Notes under the pieces: generated by a model
Told to the model about the DNA's origin: nothing
Database searches by the model: none
What the model saw: the letters and a program-made list of their open reading frames with translations, nothing else
Program-made: the position numbers and the translations under genes
From: Haloplanus salinus
Lineage (GTDB): Archaea > Halobacteriota > Halobacteria > Halobacteriales > Haloferacaceae
Length of the DNA: 64,000 nucleotides
Direction of reading: 5' to 3'
Assembly (NCBI RefSeq): GCF_003336245.1
Contig: NZ_QPHM01000001.1
Span: forward strand, 434,001 to 498,000
Part shown: positions 28,043 to 29,796 of the stretch, piece by piece
Layout: each line of letters starts with the position of its first letter
Numbering within the stretch: the stretch's first letter is position 1

Positions 28043-29149
28043 CTATCCCTCCTCGATGGCCTCCGCGACGGCTTCGACCGTCTCGACGTCCACGCCGTAC
28101 TCCTCGGCGAGCGACTGGGCGGCGGCGGGCGAGAGGGGCGAGCGGTCGTTCCCGCCGTGGTGGTCGTGGATCGGGTCGAGACGGCCGTCGCTCACCTCCA
28201 AGTTCACCGCGTCCCAGCGGGCGTAGTGGCCCATCGCGTCGAAGTACGCCTTGGTCGCGCGGCGTTCGGAGCGGTCGAACTCGGCGGTGAGGAGCGTCTC
28301 CTCCCCTATCGCCGGCCCGGCTTTCACGATACCGGCGGGGTTGACGAGCATGCTCCCACCGTTGCCGACGCCGAAGCCGATTTCCCCCGCCTCGAAGCCG
28401 TCGGGCACGTCGTCGCTCATGTAGGCCGAACAGGAGACGACGAACGACTGCGTCTCGAAGGCGTACTCGCGGACGGCGGGGTAGATGTCGCAGGTGTCGC
28501 GGGCCTCGGCCGAGGCGGCGCGGGTCTTGTCGCCGGGGTGGCCGTGTTGCTCCCAGAACCCCGGCCAGACGGCGGCGTGAATCTCCTCACCCTTCGCACA
28601 GAGCGCCGCCTTCGAGAGCGTCATGTGGTTCTCGTAGCAGACGAGGCCGCCGAGACGCCCCACGTCGGTGTCGTGGACGGCGAGGTGTTCGGGGTCGCCA
28701 CGGCCCCAGATGGCCCGTTCGTCGTGGGTGGGCATGAGTTTCCGGTGACGACGTATTAAGTCGCCGGAGCGGTCGAAAAAGAACAGCGAGTTGTAGAGCG
28801 TCCCGCTACCCGGCCGGTCGTCCACCTCGTTGGTGCCGAGGACGAGATGCAGGTCGGCGTCGGCGACGGCCTCGCCGATGGTCGCGACGGCGTCGTCGTC
28901 GACGTGGAGGCTGTTTTCGGCGAGGTCGACCATCAGGTCGGTCCACCGGGCGATGGAGGTGCTCCGTCGCCAGTAGGGGTAGCCGGGGAAGTACGTCTCG
29001 GGAAAGACGAGCACGTCGACGCCCGCGTCGCCGGCGCGGTCGATCCACCGGCAGGTTTTGTCGAGGGTCGCCTCGGCGTCGTGATAAACCGGTTCGATCT
29101 GTGCGGCACCGAGGGTGAACGACTCGGCGACGTCGCGGTCGCGTGACAT
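28043..29149 (-). CDS. Nitrilase-superfamily carbon-nitrogen hydrolase
   Basis: 368 residues. The catalytic triad is visible: Glu in VFPETYFPGYPYWR (about residue 51), Lys in HRKLMPTHDERAIWGRGD (about 138), and Cys in GGLVCYENHM (about 170). The ERAIWGxGD stretch and the size point to the nitrilase branch proper (nitrile or cyanide to acid and ammonia) rather than an amidase. Cytoplasmic; usually forms helical oligomers. A TATA-like tataat at 29174-29179 lies 27 nt before the start. It sits directly downstream of an 82-bp palindrome. Confidence 0.88.
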   Translation of the reverse strand: MSRDRDVAESFTLGAAQIEPVYHDAEATLDKTCRWIDRAGDAGVDVLVFPETYFPGYPYWRRSTSIARWTDLMVDLAENSLHVDDDAVATIGEAVADADLHLVLGTNEVDDRPGSGTLYNSLFFFDRSGDLIRRHRKLMPTHDERAIWGRGDPEHLAVHDTDVGRLGGLVCYENHMTLSKAALCAKGEEIHAAVWPGFWEQHGHPGDKTRAASAEARDTCDIYPAVREYAFETQSFVVSCSAYMSDDVPDGFEAGEIGFGVGNGGSMLVNPAGIVKAGPAIGEETLLTAEFDRSERRATKAYFDAMGHYARWDAVNLEVSDGRLDPIHDHHGGNDRSPLSPAAAQSLAEEYGVDVETVEAVAEAIEEG

Positions 29150-29190
29150 GGCGCCGGATTGACCGGCGACCGGTATAATCGTACGCCCTC

Positions 29191-29272
29191 ATACGGTTGA
29201 TTGTAAGTCAGTACCGGTGGGTCGCCGAGACGATCCGGCGACCCACCGGTGAACAGTTACAATAATCCGTAT
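29191..29272. repeat. 82-bp near-palindrome: 37-bp inverted repeat, 8-nt centre
   Basis: Two 37-base arms (29191-29227 and 29236-29272) pair without gaps. The inner 15 bp are perfect (ACCGGTGGGTCGCCG), as are ATTGTAA and the outer ATACGG; mismatches fall in two short blocks (6 and 3 bases wide). The spacer is agacgatc. The right end touches the stop codon of the MBF1 gene and the left end lies just upstream of the nitrilase promoter. It could be a bidirectional terminator hairpin, a regulatory structure or a tiny non-autonomous mobile element. No clear flanking target duplication was seen. Confidence 0.8.
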
Positions 29273-29796
29273 CAGTCCTTGCGCTTGACCACGTCGCCGA
29301 GGGTGGTCGTCGTCGACGACCCGCCGGACCACTCGGCGTCCTCGTCGCCGGCGCCCTCGGAGAGCGAGATGTCGAGTTTCCGTTCGAGTTTCGTCTGGAC
29401 CTCGTCGCTCGGGAGGATGTCCCCGCGTTCGAGCTTGCGGATGAGGCTCGCCTTCTCGTTGAGTTCGTTCGCGAGGGCCTCCTGGCTCAGGCCGCGGTCC
29501 TCGCGGGCCGAGCGGATGCGGTCGTCGTAGTCGGCCGCGAGCTCCTCCATGTCGTCGAACATGTCGCGGCGACGGGTGGAGCCACTGGACGACCCGCCGG
29601 ACGAGGACGAGGACGAGGACGAGGAGGACGAAGACGAAGACGAAGTAGAGTACTTGCTCGAGGACGAACTGCTCGACTCCGTTCGGACCTCGGTGCCGAA
29701 GTCGGTACAGCTGTCACAGAGTTCGAGTTCGGCCCCCTCGACTTTCGTCGTCGTGAGCGACGAACTCTCCGCACCACACATTTCACACTGGGGCAT
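29272..29796 (-). CDS. mbf1: Multiprotein-bridging factor 1 homologue (aMBF1)
   Basis: 174 residues. An N-terminal zinc ribbon (MPQCEMCGAES and LELCDSCTDF) is followed by a long Ser-rich linker (about residues 45-80) and a Cro/C1-type helix-turn-helix (SAREDRGLSQEALANELNEK, then LIRKLERGDILPSDEV). aMBF1 is a conserved archaeal protein that binds ribosomes and may link translation and transcription. The Ser linker is unusually long and encoded by a near-repetitive tract. TATA-like cttttat lies 27 nt upstream. Length is a little above the usual because of the linker. Confidence 0.93.
   Translation of the reverse strand: MPQCEMCGAESSSLTTTKVEGAELELCDSCTDFGTEVRTESSSSSSSKYSTSSSSSSSSSSSSSSSGGSSSGSTRRRDMFDDMEELAADYDDRIRSAREDRGLSQEALANELNEKASLIRKLERGDILPSDEVQTKLERKLDISLSEGAGDEDAEWSGGSSTTTTLGDVVKRKD

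Follow-up and report, generated by a model that had tools for sequence, protein, structure and literature searches.

A MITE-like foldback element at the stop codon of an MBF1-like gene in Haloplanus salinus

The palindrome and its gene neighbourhood

The window analysed here, a stretch of 64,000 nucleotides from the genome of Haloplanus salinus, contains on its minus strand an MBF1-like gene (29272 to 29796; helix-turn-helix, PF01381) and, as the next gene downstream, a nitrilase-family gene (28043 to 29149, minus strand; CN_hydrolase, PF00795), both recognised from their open reading frames (ORFs) and Pfam domains. Between them, a first-pass annotation had reported a near-perfect palindrome at 29191 to 29272 that abuts the MBF1 stop codon. 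An inverted repeat is indeed present at this place, and a repeat finder merges the region into one inverted pair. The palindrome is far beyond chance: the RNA fold of 29181 to 29282 reaches -52.3 kcal/mol, where shuffled sequences average -27.4 (z -7.4) and none of 200 does as well, while the DNA fold of the 80-bp element described below reaches -28.8 against a shuffled mean of -10.5 (z -8.5).

While the place originally given was right, the exact element runs from 29192 to 29271, the earlier span having added one paired base of each flanking TCA. It is a complete 80-bp copy of a foldback, MITE-like mobile element, lying on the plus strand (the strand of the covariance model R1, built from 26 sequences), and represents the best match of the genome to that model (E 1.6e-21). 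According to the fold and the alignment, the left arm (29192 to 29226, plus strand, 35 nt, starting with TACGG) comprises an outer terminal repeat and an inner stem, and is followed by a 10-nt loop (29227 to 29236) and by a right arm of 35 nt (29237 to 29271, plus strand) that ends in CCGTA. The element is bordered by two target-site repeats: a TCA on the left (29189 to 29191), recognised from the sequence and from empty sites in congeners, and a TCA on the right (29272 to 29274), which on the minus strand is the TGA stop codon of MBF1. The stop codon that the palindrome had been seen to abut is, in other words, the very triplet that received the insertion. The absence of a T-run, also recorded previously, is borne out by the sequence after the hairpin of the window copy, and Rfam holds no match to the element above the gathering score, with four sub-threshold matches only.

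A dispersed family that duplicates its target

A 90-base query returned 55 matches at E <= 10 in the H. salinus genome, both strands and weak fragments counted, and matches in 11 of 11 congeners. In the same genome, the search with R1 gave at least 85 matches at E <= 1 and at least 41 distinct element places at E <= 5.3e-4, 32 of them at E <= 1e-7. The two strands were merged by hand, and the copy count is a lower bound, since 150 of 5625 candidates were scored. Only one of the 41 places falls inside the window. The case that the first-pass annotation had named as refuting its reading, a single-copy and non-conserved sequence, does not apply, as there are many copies in this genome and its relatives. 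In a class-wide survey, 138 of 391 haloarchaeal genomes, belonging to 44 of 86 genera, had an R1 match at E <= 1e-6, E-values being rough because of the short calibration. Natrarchaeobius chitinivorans (G330) carries at least 149 R1 matches, and a pattern describing the outer arms finds 355 matches in this species versus 0 for the reversed control. Plasmid-borne copies were detected in Halomicrobium, Natronomonas, Natrinema, Natrialba, Natribaculum, Halomontanus and Natronorubrum, while a phage collection held no match to the element and viral contigs held none to the strict arm pattern. A match in Flavobacterium was rejected, since no element was found around it. The element is therefore one copy of a hairpin-shaped mobile family spread through many haloarchaea.

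The family consensus opens with TACGGTTTAYTGTAAGTCATTNCCGG and an inner stem, continues through a loop of some 10 nt and closes with a nearly complementary right arm whose last bases are CCGTA. Its members are about 80 bp long, with terminal repeats of the form TA-NNN-...TGTAA...CCGG and a fully paired interior. The short mismatch blocks already noticed in the arms of the window copy prove to be a family trait, as T.T, G.G, C.C and A.A mismatches are conserved in the consensus and recur across copies. When 24 sequences are compared, each from a different genome, 95.3% of cells are paired versus 79.9% in shuffles, and changes on both sides affect 18 of 31 pairs versus 11.9 in shuffles. The terminal bases covary as well (TACGG/CCGTA, TAGTG/CACTA, TAGGG/CCCTA), the ends found being TACGG, TAGTG, TACTG, TAGGG or TAATG. 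This could mean that the element needs to fold, or that its two arms are kept similar by palindromic repair; both fit these data.

Identical triplets flank 17 of the 41 H. salinus copies and 25 of the 30 loci of the class sample (the best locus read from each of 30 genomes), compared with 34 of 1420 offset controls; the remaining 24 H. salinus copies now lack them. In N. chitinivorans, 63 of 78 copies have identical triplets (TCA 38, TGA 24, TTA 1), part of this sample having been found by a pattern that demands T-N-A on one side. The duplicated triplets are thus TCA or TGA (TSA), rarely TTA, and they belong to the target rather than to the element, because identical elements carry either TCA or TGA.

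Empty sites point in the same direction. The MBF1 site is without the element in 11 of 11 congeners; in two of these (G002 and G003) the downstream sequence resumes at once and the stop codon is TAG, so that the ancestral triplet is not exactly readable there. The element is likewise absent from a cysteine-desulfurase-like site and from a SAM-hydrolase site in 11 of 11 congeners each, and at the SAM-hydrolase gene one congener (G009) has a single TGA followed by the downstream sequence that in H. salinus comes after TGA-element-TGA. Another congener (G006) has eight 100%-identical copies at eight sites, and all 10 copies fetched from it show perfect triplet repeats. The dispersed copies, the 3-bp repeats, the empty sites and this burst of identical copies support a mobile-element reading: the element is of the MITE-like foldback kind, non-autonomous and mobile until recently, and its copies move into 3-bp TSA targets and duplicate them. 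Of the three options first proposed for the palindrome, the tiny mobile element is supported; the terminator hairpin and the RNA structure are unsupported as its origin.

Several individual loci deserve mention. At L110, L097, L094, L171 and L129 the copies are in tandem, the TSA repeat being followed by TACGG, and these arrangements represent one element inserted at the end repeat of another. At L113 and L361, from two congeners, the element lies in the middle of a different palindromic repeat, in opposite orientations; these flanks are assigned to another repeat because the match between them spans only 84 bp and is self-palindromic, and the idea of one site hit in two species was dropped. 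Two genomes of one genus (G119 and G337) share the same insertion (L139 and L140) with flanks 99% identical, indicating that some copies are vertically inherited. In N. chitinivorans, a 190-bp version (L169, 760 to 955, from contig C12) carries some 110 additional bases in the loop between its two arms. In the same species, copies at 1256, 3235, 7218 and 5591 (L105, L106 and L108) are flanked by CTA, ATA or TTA on one side and TAG on the other, without TSA repeats, and model matches of this kind possibly constitute a second hairpin family.

Insertions at stop codons

The position found at MBF1 is a common one. In H. salinus, 32 of the 41 copies coincide precisely with the stop codon of a coding-like ORF versus 26 of 257 control sites, and in the class sample 17 of 30 do so versus 59 of 633. 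The controls are the remaining TNA sites within these loci that are either non-coding or stops, genes were called with a home-made caller, and the stop counts rest on looser ORF rules, a stricter rule having missed MBF1. In N. chitinivorans, a stop codon is recognised at 35 of the 78 copies, while 41 copies are intergenic and 2 are inside ORFs. Eight of eight further genes tested in H. salinus encode real Pfam proteins. Eight regions of named plasmids were inspected: in three of them an annotated gene (archease, FAD-dependent oxidoreductase and PHP-domain genes) ends at the element, and in the other five no annotated CDS does so, the PLSDB annotation being incomplete. In 17 H. salinus copies with unequal triplets, counted by eye, the triplet facing the stop-bearing ORF is still a stop and the other one has changed, a pattern that is suggestive only, because a stop is what identifies the gene side in the first place.

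The preference of the element for certain targets accounts for part of this excess. Pooling the copies with intact TSA repeats, the share at stop codons is 55 of 100 versus 8.6% of control sites; the expected share is 12-20% once controls are weighted by the target preference seen in non-stop insertions, and up to 34% if the preference is learned from all insertions, so that part of the excess reflects sequence context. It could also be argued that insertion into TSA is random and that stop codons are merely harmless places where copies survive, an explanation that competes with the stop-codon part of our reading and not with mobility. The resemblance of stop contexts to the preferred target and the scarcity of N. 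chitinivorans copies within ORFs would both agree with such survivorship. Nevertheless, the first 60 nucleotides downstream of a gene should be about as harmless, yet insertions at the stop and 1-60 nt downstream of it are split 56:18, while the TSA sites open to them are split 217:348 (odds ratio 5.0, p 1.3e-9; L071 and L119, a single site, both enter the count). Survivorship alone is accordingly considered a rather doubtful account of the pattern, and exact stop-codon insertions are far commoner than either target composition or the safety of the downstream region predicts.

As TGA is itself a stop codon, its duplication leaves the gene with its own stop and places the element directly after it. 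A mobile element that duplicates a stop codon as its target can enter essential genes without breaking them, and landing in this way is a route to high copy number in compact genomes.

Candidate mechanism and related repeats

The segment 29192 to 29271 is very probably a non-autonomous, MITE-like foldback copy belonging to a family that inserts into TSA, occurs in excess at stop codons and would be moved by a DDE-type transposase in trans. We infer such a trans-acting enzyme because the 3-bp duplication is fixed and the ends are inverted. The transposase would cut at the terminal TA ends and join the cut ends to TSA sites staggered by 3 bp, mildly favouring a context with C before and G after the target. 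The over-representation at stop codons would then combine this preference with a further bias, be it of insertion or of selection, and the copy in the window would have entered the MBF1 stop codon after the lineage split from the sampled congeners.

Arm searches of the H. salinus genome yielded no autonomous partner: all 15 matches to the left arm and 25 of the 26 to the right arm belong to 80-bp copies, and the lone match outside the listed copies (C3:187346) is, over the sequence inspected there, one half of a diverged hairpin. The arm pattern likewise disclosed no such partner in 14 N. chitinivorans regions around seemingly isolated arms, most of these arms being full copies with one diverged arm. 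At 30 DDE_Tnp_1 loci from six genomes, matching ends combined with a TSA repeat were not found; L203 contains one arm resembling that of the element, and the inverted pair at L204 is of chance level and dissimilar to the element. Several observations count against the explanation favoured here: the fruitless searches for a partner, the N. chitinivorans copies away from recognised stop codons, the H. salinus copies with unequal triplets, the share of the stop-codon excess that is due to sequence context, and the strong interior pairing, for which an ordinary DDE mechanism has no need. A more far-reaching proposal, which we regard as unlikely, is that throughout the class the insertion machinery, and not just selection, is aimed at stop codons, perhaps through a single-copy domesticated transposase without an element of its own, and that full-length folding is required, the hairpin being the substrate. 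Knowing the enzyme would tell whether the insertion step itself is directed to stop codons.

The MITEs of bacteria and archaea, which are IS-derived and non-autonomous, resemble the element in being short and non-coding, in their terminal inverted repeats and target-site duplication, and in their many copies and recent burst. The features by which MITEs are recognised are found here as a length of 80 bp with arms of 35+35 nt, a fixed 3-bp duplication and many dispersed copies. Unlike MITEs, the element has a fully paired interior and a marked tendency to land at stop codons, and the limited searches made found no parent IS for it. Elements of the IS1031 subgroup of the IS5 family and of the PIF-Harbinger type use a 3-bp TNA target. 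The TNA-type duplication (TCA/TGA, rarely TTA) is shared with them, whereas the element is almost restricted to TSA and no related transposase could be linked to it at the 30 DDE_Tnp_1 loci. In the literature searched, no description of the family was recognised, although a name for it may already exist.

A different view would be that the palindrome is a transcription terminator or a 3'-end mRNA stabiliser of MBF1, that is, an RNA hairpin under selection. In agreement with this, a very stable hairpin lies directly 3' of the MBF1 stop codon, many copies sit at gene 3' ends, and the interior is paired with two-sided changes across the 24 genomes, although such changes can also stem from replication errors that correct palindromes. 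The T-run is missing, however; the hairpin is absent at the MBF1 end and at the two other gene ends in all the congeners, and the 3-bp target repeats denote arrival by insertion. The strand of the element relative to the stop codon or TGA shows no clear bias either (6:11 in H. salinus, 30:33 in N. chitinivorans and 12:13 in the class sample), and this speaks against an RNA role that depends on orientation. We hold this explanation to be quite improbable, and a terminator, an operator and a conserved RNA gene were rejected as the origin on account of the empty congener sites, the lack of an Rfam match, of strand bias and of a T-run. As a side effect, the mobile element may influence MBF1 transcript ends. 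More generally, the family sets strong hairpins immediately behind the stop codons of many haloarchaeal genes, and these could alter transcript ends and may confuse the annotation of terminators and 3'-UTRs.

Still less probable is a palindrome of REP/REPIN type, mobilised through a Y1 (RAYT) transposase via single-stranded hairpins, for which the whole-element hairpin with its conserved asymmetric mismatches and the reported supply of stop codons to flanking ORFs by GTAG REPs (PMC3733652) would speak, but which disagrees with ends devoid of a GTAG/CGTC tag and with the TCA or TGA repeats beside identical elements and the single TGA of the G009 empty site, both indicative of staggered double-strand insertion. 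REPs, as described in the same source, are 20-40 bp long and GTAG/CGTC-tagged. They resemble the element in being palindromic, in lying near gene 3' ends and, for some, in supplying the stop codon, and they differ from it in that the element measures 80 bp, truly duplicates 3 bp of the host stop codon and is untagged. Among repeats that supply stop codons, the GTAG REPs of bacteria offer the nearest precedent.

Haloarchaea also harbour the SMRs of Haloquadratum walsbyi, of 80-110 bp, with prominent inverted ends, up to 54 copies and an unknown parent (PMC3119063). The same source describes them as lacking target duplications and as targeting IS605-type elements, PATEs or other mobile elements. 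Size, inverted ends, copy number, haloarchaeal hosts and the unknown parent are common to both, whereas the element duplicates TSA and sits at gene ends, a distinction drawn from the published description of SMRs. Among the haloarchaeal repeats of the literature searched, SMRs come closest in kind to the element.
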